NCBI GenBank assembly: GCA_023703675.1
Contig: CP097974.1
Coordinates: 147,288-211,287 of the forward strand
Length of the DNA: 64,000 bases
Direction of reading: 5' to 3'
DNA from: SAR86 cluster bacterium
GTDB taxonomy: Bacteria; Pseudomonadota; Gammaproteobacteria; Magnimaribacterales; AG-339-G14
Shown here piece after piece: positions 26,817 through 33,059 of this stretch. Positions within the stretch are counted from its first letter, which is position 1. Each line of letters opens with the position of its first letter. The notes under the pieces were generated by a model. It saw nothing but the letters and a program-made list of their open reading frames with translations. It was not told the DNA's origin and searched no databases. Made by a program: the position numbers and the translations under genes.

Positions 26817-26846
26817 TTGCATTGAGTTTAGGGAAAAACTTATACT
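26817..26846 (+). promoter_or_regulatory. Candidate promoter of first TonB-dependent receptor
   Basis: TTGCAT at 26817-26822 and TATACT at 26841-26846 are separated by 18 bases and resemble a sigma-70 promoter. The transcript would have a leader of about 80 bases ending in AAGGAGG at 26922-26928, six bases before the TTG start. A ten-base palindrome ACGAATTCGT at 26863-26872 lies early in that leader. The TTGACA at 26848-26853 has no convincing -10 partner. Confidence 0.45.
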
Positions 26847-26934
26847 TTTGACAGAATTTAGGACGAATTCGTTTCAATAGCTCTCATCAGTTCATTTTCT
26901 CTTCACTTTAAACAAATCACTAAGGAGGGAGATT

Positions 26935-29904
26935 TTGAATACCTACGTAAAATATTTTTTTATAGGCATAAGTTTATTAATGCTTAATACATTTGCGTTC
27001 GCGCAAACCGTTGAAGAAGTAACAGTTACTGCTGCAAGAAAAACTCAATCAGTACAAGATGTTGCAATTTCTGTTCAAGCACTGGATGGCGATGATCTAA
27101 GAGAGCAACACATCACAACTGCTGACGATTTAGCTGAAAGACTACCGGGTTATGGTTATTCCCAAGCAATTGGTTCAACAATCGCAACTAAAGTTAGAGG
27201 TCTTTTGATTCCTACTATTGGTGCAGCTCAGGTTGCTGCTGTTCAATACAATATAAATGGTCACACTCAGGCTGCTACAAGTTTAGCTGAAGCAGGATTT
27301 CTTGACTTGGAAAGACTTGAGGTCTTGGAAGGTCCTCAAGGAACTTTATATGGAAGAAACACTACAACCGGTCTTGTCAATGCCATCACAAATAAACCTG
27401 GAGCCCCTGAATATTTAGATTTGTCTTTTGGACCAGATGGACTTACAAATTTTGCTGGAGCCTATAACTTTGCTCTAAGTGATGCCGCGTCAGCAAGAAT
27501 TGCATTTAAAAAATACGACAAAGACGGCACTATCTACAATACTGTAACTGCGAACGATGTTGATTCTAGAGACTCTTATGCCTTAAGACTTACAATGGAT
27601 TACGAACTAGAAGACGATAGCACTTTTAGGGTTATGTATGCTAGAAATCAAATAAATGATTCGAGACAAAATCTAGGTGCTCCAGCTTGTAAAAGGGATG
27701 AGTTTTTTGGTTGCTCGCCATTTCCTGGGAATCCTTACGACAATATAAATAAACCCGTTCATCCAGTTGGACTAGTTAATAATACTTTCAACACTCTAAT
27801 GTTGATTGCACCTGGTATTGACACTTACGCTGAAGCAGCGGCTTCAGCAATTCAAAGCATTGATACGATTCAAAAAACTCGTGATCCTTCGCAAAACATT
27901 AATCATGAGCAAGGTCAAATGGAATACTTTAGAGATCTGGAAGTCGATGATGGTGCTTTAACGTTAAATTTAAAAGCTACTTATCAAGACACAACACAAG
28001 CAATGTATAGCGATAATGATCACTCTCATTCAATTGGCAGTACTGGGTTAATAGGTAATGCTTTGATTCCTCAAGGCTCGCTTGCTATCGCTTCGCTTCC
28101 CACGGTTTGCTATGGAACACTTACCAACGTAGTAAGAGACGAATCTTTCGAATGTAGTTTTCCTAATTTTCACAGTGAACAATACGAATTAAATCTTGTT
28201 TCAGATTTTGACGGCAGACATAACTTTGTTTTTGGTGCCTACAACTTCCAGTCTGTTTCTTTCAACCCTTATTGGATTCAGACCATCGGTTACCTAGCGA
28301 TGAATGACTTTGGAAATCACCCAATGTCAGGTTTATTTGGCGGTCTCCTTGACGGCTATGGCGGACAAGCTTTTGCAAAAGCGCTTGGCGGTACTATGGC
28401 TAGCTCTCCTATTCAAGCAGGACTAGCAAGTCTTGGAGCAACCCCAACGACGACGCAAGTGGCGACTTTCTTAACAACAAATGCTGCGCCTCAAATTCAG
28501 CTTTTGTGTACGGCAGCGGCAGGCGAAAATTCAACTCTTAGCGCGAAAGAAAACAACACATGTATCAAAGATATGCCTGCAGAAGCTGGCGGATTAATCA
28601 ACGACCAAAGAACGCACCGTGATACGATGTCAATCTTTGGTGAATATTATTTAGACGTCTCAGAAAATCTCAAACTTACTTTTGGAGTAAGATACAACGA
28701 CGACAGATATTGGACGCAATCCATGCAAGGTTTGTCAGATGGGGCTTATTCTGGAGAGGGCACAGCTGTCGCAGCTGCTTGTAACGCTGCAGACTACGAG
28801 GCTTGTTATCAAGCGGGAGCTTCAGTAACTACTGACAAACAAGAAGAAGACATGTACAAGTTTGTGACCCAGTACTTCTACGATCAAGGTCAAGTTTATG
28901 CCTCTTATACTACTGGTAATCGTCCAGGAGGAGCTAACCCTGATACAACTAAGTATGCAGGCTCGGAGTCAACTCAAATTGAAATTGGAACCAAAAATAT
29001 TCTCCTCGATGGAGCCATGCGTTTGAATTTGACTGCGTTTTCTATGGAAATGGAAAACGGTCAGTTCTCTCAAATTCGACAAAGTTCCGCTTATACTGAA
29101 CTTCATGACTTCACTCACGAAGGAGTGTCACTGAATGTTCAAGCTTATGTGACTCCTACTACAGTTGTATCTTTGGGAGCTTTATACCTTGACAGTACTA
29201 TGGACACAGTGGCTCCAACAACTGAGAACACATACGCAGTAGTTGCTTTAGGAGGAATCATTAAACAAGGTTCTCAATCAATCGATCCACACAATCCAAC
29301 TCAAGCGACAAGTTTTACTAACTTAGCTACTAACACCGCTTTAGCTGCTGCATATCAGCAAGCTGGACTTTCTGCTGCTGCTGCTTCAGCCGCTGCTGAT
29401 GGTATTGACGATGCTTGTGATGCAATCTTTGGTGCGGCACTTTGTGGTCAGTCAACTTATTCGATGGATAACAAAGGCAATGTCTTAATGAATCCGCAAG
29501 GATTGGCTTTCCCTATATGTTCAGGTTGTAGTGAATTCAAAGAAGTTGGTGGCAACCAAGTACCATTTGCTGCTGAATTAGAGTCTAATGTTGCTTTGAC
29601 CCAACTTTACTCAGGTTTTGGCGGTTCGGGAGCTGTATCTTTGATGTACTCTTTCAAAGATGAACATTACAGTGATTGGTATAATGCCGAAAAGCATAAG
29701 GTTCCTGCAGCAGAATTTTGGAACTTAACTGCTTCTTATTCTCCAGACAATGCTGATTGGTACCTTAATCTTTGGGCCAATAATCTTAGAGATAAAAGAC
29801 AAATTACTTCTTTGCAAGGAACAAGTAACTTGCAAGGACAAAATATATTTACGACTTTCTCTGAAGGCATGCGAGCTGGATTAGATTTTGGTTACAATTT
29901 CTAA
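26935..29904 (+). CDS. TonB-dependent outer membrane receptor, first copy
   Basis: This 989-residue protein is an outer membrane active-transport channel energised by TonB-ExbBD. It has a signal peptide (cleavage probably after AFAQ, about residue 24) and a TonB box-like EEVTVTAARK. The plug domain runs from QSVQDVAISVQALDG to about residue 150 (LEVLEGPQGTLYGRNTTTGLVN). A beta-barrel ending in FGYNF has the terminal aromatic residue needed for barrel assembly. Loops contain repeated cysteine pairs (ACKRDEFFGC, ACNAADYEAC) and an alanine-rich insertion near residues 800-830. The start is TTG with a very strong Shine-Dalgarno. It is clearly homologous to the next gene. The substrate is unknown, since no siderophore, cobalamin or glycan genes are adjacent. 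Confidence 0.9.
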   Translation: MNTYVKYFFIGISLLMLNTFAFAQTVEEVTVTAARKTQSVQDVAISVQALDGDDLREQHITTADDLAERLPGYGYSQAIGSTIATKVRGLLIPTIGAAQVAAVQYNINGHTQAATSLAEAGFLDLERLEVLEGPQGTLYGRNTTTGLVNAITNKPGAPEYLDLSFGPDGLTNFAGAYNFALSDAASARIAFKKYDKDGTIYNTVTANDVDSRDSYALRLTMDYELEDDSTFRVMYARNQINDSRQNLGAPACKRDEFFGCSPFPGNPYDNINKPVHPVGLVNNTFNTLMLIAPGIDTYAEAAASAIQSIDTIQKTRDPSQNINHEQGQMEYFRDLEVDDGALTLNLKATYQDTTQAMYSDNDHSHSIGSTGLIGNALIPQGSLAIASLPTVCYGTLTNVVRDESFECSFPNFHSEQYELNLVSDFDGRHNFVFGAYNFQSVSFNPYWIQTIGYLAMNDFGNHPMSGLFGGLLDGYGGQAFAKALGGTMASSPIQAGLASLGATPTTTQVATFLTTNAAPQIQLLCTAAAGENSTLSAKENNTCIKDMPAEAGGLINDQRTHRDTMSIFGEYYLDVSENLKLTFGVRYNDDRYWTQSMQGLSDGAYSGEGTAVAAACNAADYEACYQAGASVTTDKQEEDMYKFVTQYFYDQGQVYASYTTGNRPGGANPDTTKYAGSESTQIEIGTKNILLDGAMRLNLTAFSMEMENGQFSQIRQSSAYTELHDFTHEGVSLNVQAYVTPTTVVSLGALYLDSTMDTVAPTTENTYAVVALGGIIKQGSQSIDPHNPTQATSFTNLATNTALAAAYQQAGLSAAAASAAADGIDDACDAIFGAALCGQSTYSMDNKGNVLMNPQGLAFPICSGCSEFKEVGGNQVPFAAELESNVALTQLYSGFGGSGAVSLMYSFKDEHYSDWYNAEKHKVPAAEFWNLTASYSPDNADWYLNLWANNLRDKRQITSLQGTSNLQGQNIFTTFSEGMRAGLDFGYNF

Positions 29905-29917
29905 TTAGTTAACTAGC

Positions 29918-29949
29918 AAAAAAAACCCCGCAAAAGCGGGGTTTTTTTT
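29918..29949. terminator. Rho-independent terminator after first receptor
   Basis: A CCCCGC / GCGGGG stem (29926-29931 with 29936-29941) closes an AAAA loop. It is flanked by eight A on the left and eight T on the right, so it could work in both directions. Together with the preceding coding end it is almost identical to the terminator after the second receptor. Confidence 0.93.
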
Positions 29950-29973: not shown

Positions 29974-30002
29974 TTGTCATCCAAAATTAGCTGGGGTAAT
30001 AT
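29974..30002 (+). promoter_or_regulatory. Candidate promoter of second TonB-dependent receptor
   Basis: TTGTCA at 29974-29979 and TATAAT-like TAATAT at 29997-30002 are separated by exactly 17 bases, a strong sigma-70 match. The predicted start near 30009 gives a leader of about 115 bases before the GTG start. It sits just after the terminator of the first receptor, so the two receptors should be expressed independently. Confidence 0.6.
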
Positions 30003-30005
30003 CGC

Positions 30006-30125
30006 ATTCAGGGGAGAAACCTTACCCGTCACGGACTGACGATTCTCAATTAGAAAGCTCAACGGAATGAGATACAAATTTGTATTTCTCCTGAATTAAT
30101 TATTGAGCTCAAGAGGGAGGAGTCA
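30006..30125 (+). promoter_or_regulatory. Candidate structured regulatory leader of second receptor mRNA
   Basis: Bases 30006-30019 are complementary to 30085-30096 (12 pairs with a two-base bulge), which forms a closing helix. Inside are CGTCA-CGGAC-TGACG (30028-30042 approx.), TTCT-CAATT-AGAA, CTCA-ACGGAA-TGAG, and the palindrome ATACAAATTTGTAT (30072-30085). CTCCT at 30088-30092 in the closing helix is also complementary to AGGAG at 30118-30122, the ribosome binding site. GCTCAA at 30057-30062 can pair with TTGAGC at 30103-30108. These mutually exclusive pairings look like a translational switch. No known riboswitch consensus was recognised. Confidence 0.45.
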
Positions 30126-33059
30126 GTGAAAAAATTTATTAAATATACAGTCTTAGGCGCAGCTTTAGCTTTGCTTAACACTTTTGCCTATGCGCAAACG
30201 GTTGAGGAAGTTACTGTTACCGCAGCGAGAAAAGAACAATCGGTTCAAGACGTTGCGATTTCAGTGCAAGCTATTTCTAGCGAAGACTTAACAGAACAAC
30301 ACATCGAATCAGCTGATGATTTGGCCGAAACCATACCTGGTTTTGGGTACGCTCAAGCCATCGGTAGTGGGGTTGGCCTAAGAATTAGGGGGTTAATCTT
30401 TGAAACCATTGGTGCGGCACAAACGCAACCAGGTGTAACCGCTTTTAACGGCCACACCGTTGGTAACCGAACTTGGGGTTCTATGGGTTTTTTAGATGCC
30501 GAGCGAATTGAGGTACTTGAAGGTCCTCAAGGTACTTTGTATGGAAGAAACAGTACCACTGGAGTTGTCAATTTCATTTCTAATACTCCAGGCGCTGATC
30601 AATACCTAAACTTAACTGCTGGACAAGATGGTCTTGGACAATTCAGTTTTGCTAGAGATTTTGATTTCGAGGGTGGCTCCCTTCGATTTGCTGGTGCTAA
30701 GTATGACAAAGACGGAGTCATCTATAACTCCGGAACCTTAAACGATATTGACAGCAGAGATTCATTTCAAGCCAGAGTAACTGGTGAATTTGAAATGGAC
30801 GAACAAAATACACTTACTTTTGTTTATGAGAGATCAAACATAAACGATTCTCGTCAAAACGTGGGCACATCAGCTTGTAAACGATCTGATTTTTTTGGTT
30901 GCGATCCTACAGTCACAGACATAACGCCCTACCTCAACCAGCCTGTCAATACTAGAGGAAGTGTATCTAATACGTTTAATATATTGACCAACGTTAATGC
31001 CTCGAATGCAGACTTTTTTGCTGCGACTGCGGCTAGCGCAGTGGCAGATATTGATGTCGTCAATAAAGACACAGATCCTTTAAGAATTGAAACTCAAGAG
31101 ATGTTTCAGCTCACCAACGTCATGGAACTTGATGATTACACTGTGACTTTTAGAGGAACTTATACTGATTCTAGATATCAAATGTTCGATGACAACGATC
31201 ACGGAAACGCAACCGGAGCTTTAAATGGAACTCTGATGCCTACAATGGTGATCCCAGCTTTAAGAACGCTTTGTAAAGGGACTCTTACCAATGTGACCAC
31301 CGATCAGGCATTTGAATGTACCGATGCAAATTTCCACGACGAACAATATGAAGTCAACATAGTTTCAGACCTAAGCGGTCCACACAATTTTACTGCCGGA
31401 GCTTATGTCTACCAGAGCTCAGCTCATAACCCTTACACGATTCAAACTACTTCATATCTATTATTGAATGACTTTGATCAGCATCCATATGCTGCTTTGT
31501 TTGGCGGAGCTTTAAATGACTACGGTGGGCAAAATTTTTACACTTCTTTTGTAACACAGCTAGCTGCAAATGGTGCTGACATCGCAACAGCCGCTGGTAC
31601 CAGCACGGCTGCCCTAGTAGGCCTTCTTTCTACAACAGTTGCAACTGCAATAATAAATGGTTGTTCAGGAAGCGCAGCAAACAATAGTTCTTGTAAGAAA
31701 AGCATGCCAGCAGAAGCTGGAGGTCTAATTAACGACCAAAGAACTCAAAGATATGGTTCTGCGCTTTACGGTGAGTACTATTTCCAAGCGACTGATAATA
31801 TTAAGCTTACTTTGGGTGCAAGATACATGGACGACCGTTACACTACTCAATCGATGCAAGGATTGTCTGATGGAGCTTATTCAAGTTTTGGTGAAACCGC
31901 TGCAGTTGCAGCTTGTAACTCAGATAACTATGAACTATGTTATCAAGCTGGATCAAACATCACTGCCGATAAAAATGAAGTGGCTACTTACCTAGCTGGT
32001 GTGCAGTACGATTACGATCAAGGAATGGTTTACCTCTCAGCTAAGACTGGTAACCGTCCTGGCGGAGCCAACCCTGATACTACTAAATACGGCGAATCAA
32101 AGTCCACGCAATATGAAATTGGAACGAAAAACGTTCTCTTTGGTGGAGCGATGCGTCTGAATGCAACTTACTTCACTCAAGAAGTTGAGGACGCGCACTG
32201 GTCAGTTATTCGAGTAAGTTCTGCTTACACTAACTTGCACAGCATGACTCACGAAGGTTTCCAAGTGAACATGCAAGCTTTCGTAACACCGTCGACAATT
32301 CTTTCAGTAAGCGCATTAGCTACTGATAGTACTTTCGACACAGAAGACGGTGCATTAGTGGCATCTACTGAAGTTGGCGTGCTTTACAAAGGTTCAACAA
32401 CTGTAGATCCGCACAACCCAACGCAAGCGACTTCATTCACTGAAATTGCAGTAGCTGATTTAATATCTGGAACTCCTGCGCAACAGGGCGTCTATGCACT
32501 AGTAAATGGTGCTTGTGGAGTATCGGCAGTTGCTGCTTTTTGTCCTTTTGTAACTCATTATGCCGTTGATGAAAATGGAAACTATTTCATCAACCCACAA
32601 GGATTGGTCGCGGGTACTATAAATGTTCCTGCCTCGATTGCAGCTGGAGCAGCTTCAGATCCTACAAAAATGGTACCAGTACAAAACGTTATGAAACAAA
32701 TAGGTGGAAACAAAGTGCCTGGATCGGCAGATTTAGAGACCAATATAGTGCTAACTCAGCTTTACCAAGGCATGGGTGGTTCTGGAACGATCAATCTGTC
32801 TTATCGTTACACGGATTCTACTGAAGGTGACATTTGGAACAACTCTAGACACAGAACTCCTGCTTCAGAGTTTTTTAACTTCAACGCAACGTATGAGCCA
32901 GACAACGCTGACTGGTACGTTAACTTGTGGGCAAGAAATCTCATGGATAAAAGACAGCAAACTTCAAGACAAAGAACTAGTACTCTTCAAGGAGGTAACC
33001 CATTTGTTACTTTCTCTCAAGGCATGAGACTTGGGTTAGATTTTGGTTACAATTTCTAA
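30126..33059 (+). CDS. TonB-dependent outer membrane receptor, second copy
   Basis: The 977-residue protein is a paralog of the preceding receptor. It shares the signal peptide type (ending AYAQ), the EEVTVTAARK box, a plug with QSVQDVAISVQ and EVLEGPQGTLYGRNSTTGVVN, the loop cysteine pairs (ACKRSDFFGC, ACNSDNYELC), the KSMPAEAGGLINDQRT segment, and the C-terminal FGYNF. Identity is moderate across most of the length, but the last few codons and the following terminator match the first copy almost base for base. The start is GTG after a GGGAGGAG ribosome binding site. Codons are visibly richer in G and C than in the housekeeping genes around it, consistent with high expression. The substrate is unknown. 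Confidence 0.9.
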   Translation: MKKFIKYTVLGAALALLNTFAYAQTVEEVTVTAARKEQSVQDVAISVQAISSEDLTEQHIESADDLAETIPGFGYAQAIGSGVGLRIRGLIFETIGAAQTQPGVTAFNGHTVGNRTWGSMGFLDAERIEVLEGPQGTLYGRNSTTGVVNFISNTPGADQYLNLTAGQDGLGQFSFARDFDFEGGSLRFAGAKYDKDGVIYNSGTLNDIDSRDSFQARVTGEFEMDEQNTLTFVYERSNINDSRQNVGTSACKRSDFFGCDPTVTDITPYLNQPVNTRGSVSNTFNILTNVNASNADFFAATAASAVADIDVVNKDTDPLRIETQEMFQLTNVMELDDYTVTFRGTYTDSRYQMFDDNDHGNATGALNGTLMPTMVIPALRTLCKGTLTNVTTDQAFECTDANFHDEQYEVNIVSDLSGPHNFTAGAYVYQSSAHNPYTIQTTSYLLLNDFDQHPYAALFGGALNDYGGQNFYTSFVTQLAANGADIATAAGTSTAALVGLLSTTVATAIINGCSGSAANNSSCKKSMPAEAGGLINDQRTQRYGSALYGEYYFQATDNIKLTLGARYMDDRYTTQSMQGLSDGAYSSFGETAAVAACNSDNYELCYQAGSNITADKNEVATYLAGVQYDYDQGMVYLSAKTGNRPGGANPDTTKYGESKSTQYEIGTKNVLFGGAMRLNATYFTQEVEDAHWSVIRVSSAYTNLHSMTHEGFQVNMQAFVTPSTILSVSALATDSTFDTEDGALVASTEVGVLYKGSTTVDPHNPTQATSFTEIAVADLISGTPAQQGVYALVNGACGVSAVAAFCPFVTHYAVDENGNYFINPQGLVAGTINVPASIAAGAASDPTKMVPVQNVMKQIGGNKVPGSADLETNIVLTQLYQGMGGSGTINLSYRYTDSTEGDIWNNSRHRTPASEFFNFNATYEPDNADWYVNLWARNLMDKRQQTSRQRTSTLQGGNPFVTFSQGMRLGLDFGYNF

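Follow-up and report, generated by a model that had tools for sequence, protein, structure and literature searches.

The described systems closest to the leader analyzed here are targets of CsrA (Rsm). In the CsrA-repressed glgC leader of E. coli, a GGA in an upstream hairpin loop and a GGA in the Shine-Dalgarno sequence lie at a bridgeable distance (PMC7652899), and one CsrA dimer bridges sites 10–63 bases apart (PMC7652899). The ANGGAN hexaloop is a high-affinity CsrA/RsmE site (PMC7652899), carried on a short stem in the Pseudomonas RsmE-hcnA Shine-Dalgarno stem-loop (2JPP; PMC7652899). In the E. coli ymdA leader, the position of the CsrA sites allows binding to undo a fold that conceals the Shine-Dalgarno sequence, and activation by CsrA was demonstrated (PMC7492729). 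A link between Csr and TonB-dependent receptors (TBDRs), as proposed below for SAR86, appears in the consulted portions of two accounts of marine gammaproteobacteria: expression of several TBDR genes rose when csrA was mutated in Vibrio alginolyticus (PMC12298160), and for Pseudoalteromonas it was tentatively suggested that Csr acts on TBDRs (PMC9927453). These organisms are not SAR86, and no conserved leader RNA is described in those portions (PMC12298160, PMC9927453). Our literature search found no paper joining SAR86, CsrA, and TonB-dependent receptor, and no CsrA binding or expression data for SAR86.

Few uncultured heterotrophs of the surface ocean are as abundant as the SAR86 bacteria, whose uptake of organic matter is thought to proceed largely via TBDRs. 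The regulation of uptake in streamlined genomes like theirs is poorly known. The window, a 64,000-nucleotide stretch of DNA, comes from a SAR86 gammaproteobacterium with a 1.19-Mb genome in a single contig, and it contains two TBDR genes in tandem with a promoter between them:

26935–29904, plus strand: first TBDR of the tandem pair, 989 aa, with a Pfam Plug domain.
29974–30002, plus strand: sigma-70-type promoter TTGTCA-17-TAATAT, from a consensus scan, with the −10 box conserved in relatives.
30126–33059, plus strand: second TBDR, 977 aa, with a GTG start and Pfam Plug and TonB_dep_Rec_b-barrel domains.

The promoter boxes (TTGTCA at 29974–29979 and TAATAT at 29997–30002, with a 17-base spacer) were located where a first-pass annotation had placed them, as were the other elements that it named, namely the strands 30006–30019 and 30085–30096, CTCCT (30088–30092), AGGAG (30118–30122), GCTCAA (30057–30062), and TTGAGC (30103–30108). 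The consensus scan yielded 2 promoter-like matches in the region versus 0.7 in shuffles, and the distance from the −10 box to the conserved element AGGGGAGA was kept among relatives. We infer that the transcript of the second receptor starts at about 30009–30011. Since an intrinsic terminator (29918–29949) and the promoter both sit between the two genes, the second receptor is probably transcribed separately, behind a leader of some 115 bases. This terminator was the only terminator-like site and precedes the promoter, and terminator attenuation was rejected. A leader peptide was also rejected: a frame of 10 codons begins with the ATG at 30067, but in the relatives L003 and L005 it ends within a few codons, indicating that no leader peptide is conserved.

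Two GGA hairpin loops in this leader, on which the first-pass annotation had not remarked, were its informative part. The hairpins of the two receptor leaders are as follows:

26823–26842, plus strand: UGAGUUU-AGGGAA-AAACUUA in the first receptor's leader, an ANGGAN hexaloop.
26854–26870, plus strand: GAAUU-UAGGACG-AAUUC in the first receptor's leader, covarying among relatives.
30027–30041, plus strand: hairpin A, CGUCA-CGGAC-UGACG, with GGA in the loop, covarying; putative CsrA site 1.
30058–30071, plus strand: hairpin B, CUCA-ACGGAA-UGAG, an ANGGAN hexaloop, covarying; putative CsrA site 2.
30072–30085, plus strand: hairpin C, AUACAAAUUUGUAU, with a pair probability of 0.97–1.0 in every fold tried.
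30107–30123, plus strand: possible ribosome-site hairpin, GCUC-AAGAGGGAG-GAGU, weak in the focal leader; putative CsrA site 3.

Like the glgC leader, the leader of the second receptor combines upstream GGA hairpin loops with GGAs at the Shine-Dalgarno sequence (30116–30118 and 30119–30121, 49 bases past the GGA of hairpin B), and the spacings of 28 and 49 bases between sites are inside the range bridgeable by one CsrA dimer. Unlike glgC, it precedes a different class of gene, has two or more GGA hairpins upstream, has a predicted alternative fold with long-range pairing, and is a putative CsrA binder. Its hexaloop on a short stem resembles that of RsmE-hcnA and is found at hairpin B, whereas in the related loci L057, L060, L034, and L035 an ANGGAN hairpin sits directly on the Shine-Dalgarno sequence. 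Its putative sites are also so placed that, as in ymdA, binding would undo a fold concealing the Shine-Dalgarno sequence; activation, demonstrated for ymdA, is one of two possible signs in the focal leader. The leader of the first receptor (26823–26934) is of a different conserved type, whose ANGGAN hairpin lies close to the putative start of the transcript; for the hairpin at 26854–26870, three of the six pairs had changes on both sides in 3 relatives.

A DNA search detected the second receptor's leader within the genus, and a sequence-only model of 28 leaders located it in 28 of the 40 genomes of the focal family f1, with 1–3 copies each. Outside f1, the same model gave no convincing homologue among 163 other genomes of the order, where there were a few weak matches (E 0.003–0.008). 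All copies whose downstream gene was inspected were located before TBDR genes, and the TBDR of L005 was clearly different. The blocks shared by the relatives are the −10 box, the 5′ AGGGGAGA, a UUUCUC/UUCUUC strand, CUCA, and the Shine-Dalgarno sequence GGGAGGAG or GGGGAGGA. Other TBDR leaders of f1 also carried ANGGAN hexaloops: ACAGUUA-AGGGAG-UAACUGU together with a Shine-Dalgarno hairpin AUUUCUU-AAGGAG-AAGAAAU in one, and UACUC-AGGGAG-GAGUA over the Shine-Dalgarno sequence and UUUAAGA-AGGGAG-UCUUAAA in further ones. UACUC-AGGGAG-GAGUA is also the form of the ribosome-site hairpin in relatives.

Two side observations concern these leaders. L034 and L035, which precede TBDRs of genus g3, belong to another, unrelated leader type, in which one ANGGAN hairpin lies upstream and a second, AUUUCUU-AAGGAG-AAGAAAU, directly on the Shine-Dalgarno sequence, the cleanest layout for CsrA repression that we saw. 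In genus g4 (L036–L049), a nearly invariant hairpin, CUCAUU-AGGG-GAGGA-UUCU-AAUGAG, contains the start codon, and both sides of an upstream stem change together (AAGCGAA/UUCGCUU, AAGUGAAA/UUUCACUU).

MAFFT alignment with RNAalifold across genera misaligned hairpin A and yielded few supported pairs; therefore, we aligned each hairpin as segments of equal length, on the assumption of homologous stems. In hairpin A, all five pairs had changes on both sides, and its score was 0.957 versus 0.319 in shuffles (0 of 500 as good); the counterpart in g3 is GAAGC-AGGAC-GCUUC. Its loop is a pentaloop and not the canonical hexaloop, which counts against CsrA. For hairpin B, 94% of cells were paired, two pairs were changed on both sides, and 1 of 500 shuffles scored as well; CUCA-AGGGAA-UGAG and UUCA-AAGGAC-UGAA are among its forms elsewhere. 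Hairpin C showed partial covariation by RNAalifold. The GGA loops vary or are lost in some orthologues (A in L006 and L058, A and B in L055 and L031, and also in L062), and the g4 leaders retain GGAs solely at the 5′ end and the Shine-Dalgarno sequence. Such absences count against CsrA; together with the conservation of the purine-rich 5′ strand and the ribosome site, they would suit a leader acted on in trans by a small RNA or by a GGA-hairpin-recognizing protein other than CsrA. We consider this very unlikely, because a base-pairing target would not be expected to show covarying stems around a short loop that stays constant, and the co-occurrence of csrA, described below, points to CsrA itself.

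The leader at 30010–30125 is a conserved structured RNA. Its predicted folding energy was −33.4 kcal/mol versus −25.5 ± 3.2 kcal/mol in shuffles (z −2.46; 5 of 200 as good), so that the thermodynamic fold called for by the first-pass annotation was indeed more stable than shuffles. The long-range pairings are as follows:

30010–30019, plus strand: 5′ strand of the closing helix P1, AGGGGAGAAA.
30043–30047, plus strand: anti-Shine-Dalgarno UUCUC, partner of 30115–30119 in the minimum-energy fold.
30057–30062, plus strand: 5′ strand of helix D, GCUCAA, mutually exclusive with hairpin B.
30085–30092, plus strand: 3′ strand of P1, UUUCUCCU.
30103–30108, plus strand: 3′ strand of helix D, UUGAGC.

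Two competing folds, about 3 kcal/mol apart, were predicted for the focal RNA. In the minimum-energy fold (−33.4 kcal/mol), 30035–30040 pairs with 30122–30127 on the start-codon side, 30043–30047 with the Shine-Dalgarno sequence at 30115–30119, and GCUCAA with UUGAGC; P1 and hairpins A and B are absent. When both GGA triplets were held unpaired, the best fold (−30.5 kcal/mol) contained P1, hairpins A, B, and C, and the ribosome-site hairpin. P1 also appeared when only the 5′ part of the leader was folded. The ribosome site is partly hidden in both folds, which blurs the predicted sign of regulation and counts against CsrA.

The pairings were examined by a swap test, in which the own arms of each leader were compared with arms exchanged between relatives in 2000 permutations. 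Permutations as good numbered 0 for hairpin A, 0 for P1, 3 for the anti-Shine-Dalgarno pairing (the segment following hairpin A with the Shine-Dalgarno sequence), 19 for helix D, and 41 for hairpin B, figures that are inflated by the relatedness of the leaders. The support for P1 stands on this test, since plain shuffles gave the helix little backing (mean z −0.70, with most p values above 0.1). The first-pass annotation had drawn P1 as a helix of 12 pairs; the helix itself covaries, but it is missing from the minimum-energy fold, and its length is nearer 8 pairs, because relatives align from AGGGGAGA at about 30010 and 30006–30009 are thus probably upstream of the transcript. The GCTCAA/TTGAGC pairing from the same source was borne out as helix D, whereas the switch pairing that it drew between CTCCT and the ribosome site found no covariation support (1760 of 2000). 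Its broader view, a cis-regulatory RNA whose alternative pairings extend to the ribosome site, is supported, and the compensatory changes that it had asked for were found in homologous leaders (hairpins, P1, and helix D).

The same annotation had raised a small-molecule translational riboswitch for the cargo of the receptor, in which a ligand in the P1-closed domain would decide the pairing of the ribosome site. P1, helix D, and the anti-Shine-Dalgarno covary and include mutually exclusive pairings, as a riboswitch would have, and P1 and the anti-Shine-Dalgarno pairing might coexist as a pseudoknot. Against it, no ligand core is conserved: the interior of the leader differs from genus to genus in both sequence and length, and most of it is absent from L027. 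An Rfam search of the window and ten related loci gave no match, in keeping with the annotation, which had recognized no core of the cobalamin, TPP, SAM, glycine, THF, or fluoride riboswitches. The leader was seen only before TBDRs of one family, and a riboswitch leaves unexplained the GGA loops that recur in unrelated TBDR leaders and track csrA. We therefore regard the riboswitch as improbable, and the evidence favors control by the CsrA protein over a small-molecule riboswitch.

The hairpins that would be read by CsrA are rare. ANGGAN hexaloop hairpins were found in 8 of 649 leaders genome-wide, both tandem receptors included, in a control based on simple ORF calling on the genome in which some gene starts may be misplaced. 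GGA hairpins as such were not enriched over the leaders of this genome generally, and the signal was confined to a few genes. Representative TBDR leaders contained 22 GGA hairpins versus 6.8 ± 2.4 in shuffles (0 of 1000), a count that includes related leaders and thus overstates independence. Among TBDR leaders outside the set from which the idea was formed, those of SAR86 family f3 had 4 ANGGAN hairpins in 27 leaders versus 0.34 expected, and there were none in 26 TBDR leaders of family f2 or in 44 from outside SAR86. After removal of near-duplicates, 7 of 18, 4 of 22, and 0 of 17 leaders of f1, f3, and f2 carried the motif, with 3.61, 2.14, and 0.82 GGAs per leader, respectively; Fisher's test on leaders between families gave p = 0.024, the leader sets being related. 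The f2 TBDR leaders have a GGGGG-type Shine-Dalgarno sequence and are poor in GGA. Outside the receptors, the Shine-Dalgarno sequence lies in an AAGGAG hexaloop hairpin at a divergent gene pair (G000 C1:653516, minus strand, and 653649, plus strand) and at an aminotransferase-like gene (C1:663856, minus strand), and these leaders are possible further Csr targets.

A csrA gene with a well-conserved RNA-binding region is present in the focal genome. csrA was found in 34 of 40 f1 genomes (13 of 13 good ones) and 29 of 35 f3 genomes, and no match was found in 98 sampled f2 genomes (among G040–G146), 19 good ones included. The motif and csrA therefore go together across the three SAR86 families, although one loss probably accounts for the whole difference; this, the relatedness of the leader sets, and a Fisher p of only 0.024 count against the CsrA reading. 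A simpler role, that of an ompA-like 5′ stabilizer or translation enhancer that tucks the 5′ end into P1 or a small hairpin against RNase and regulates nothing, would agree with the conserved purine-rich 5′ end, paired in most predicted folds, and with the likely high expression of the receptors. Such a role requires neither GGA in the loops, nor loss of the hairpins where csrA is missing, nor a covarying anti-Shine-Dalgarno, and we rate it as no more probable than the riboswitch.

A whole-genome scan for clustered GGA hairpins detected no convincing CsrB-like multi-GGA antagonist RNA, a further point against CsrA. The sole non-coding cluster of four GGA hairpins (C1:536292–536408) was rejected as a CsrB-like sponge: it overlaps a tRNA cluster, and one other genome has a match. 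At L133:16330–16471 (G000 C1:536330–536471), an atypical gene resembling tRNA-Arg(ACG) scored only 39.8 bits against the tRNA model; it is preceded by a hairpin AGAGGAA-ACGGAG-UUCCUCU and has a match in only one other genome of the family.

On the basis of the rare motif, the GGA hairpins in TBDR leaders, the covarying stems, and the co-occurrence of csrA, we propose with a probability of about 0.7 that the leader is a CsrA (Rsm) target. It shows the features of a CsrA-controlled leader: GGA in a short hairpin loop, a second site near the Shine-Dalgarno sequence within 10–63 bases, stems that covary around a kept loop (with L055, L031, L062, L006, and L058 as exceptions), and a csrA gene in the same genomes. 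CsrA dimers would dock on hairpins A and B as well as on GGA within the Shine-Dalgarno region (30114–30122) and thereby set translation of the receptor. The likeliest outcome would be repression, with CsrA, as in glgC, forming a bridge between an upstream hairpin and the ribosome site; it is our first choice because the Shine-Dalgarno sequence also lies in a GGA context. Docking may also select the fold. The CsrA-free RNA would pair the Shine-Dalgarno sequence and start codon with 30035–30047 and form helix D, and CsrA binding would favor the competent fold with P1 and hairpins A, B, and C. The sign could be the opposite if, as in ymdA, CsrA activates by opening up the fold adopted in its absence; we infer odds of about two to one for repression, with activation at about 1 in 3. 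From the predicted folds, a CsrA-operated translational switch via two competing folds is plausible.

A wider proposal is tentative, and we hold it to be doubtful: the SAR86 TBDR mRNAs may make up a Csr regulon of their own, in which the ligand of a two-state switch would be CsrA (A and B being present in one covarying fold only), the CsrA level, and carbon status through it, would set receptor synthesis, and one family would have dropped csrA together with the sites. If CsrA control is true, an apparent orphan riboswitch becomes a protein-controlled leader, and Csr control of receptors, which a sister family would lack along with csrA, becomes a testable regulatory difference between SAR86 lineages.
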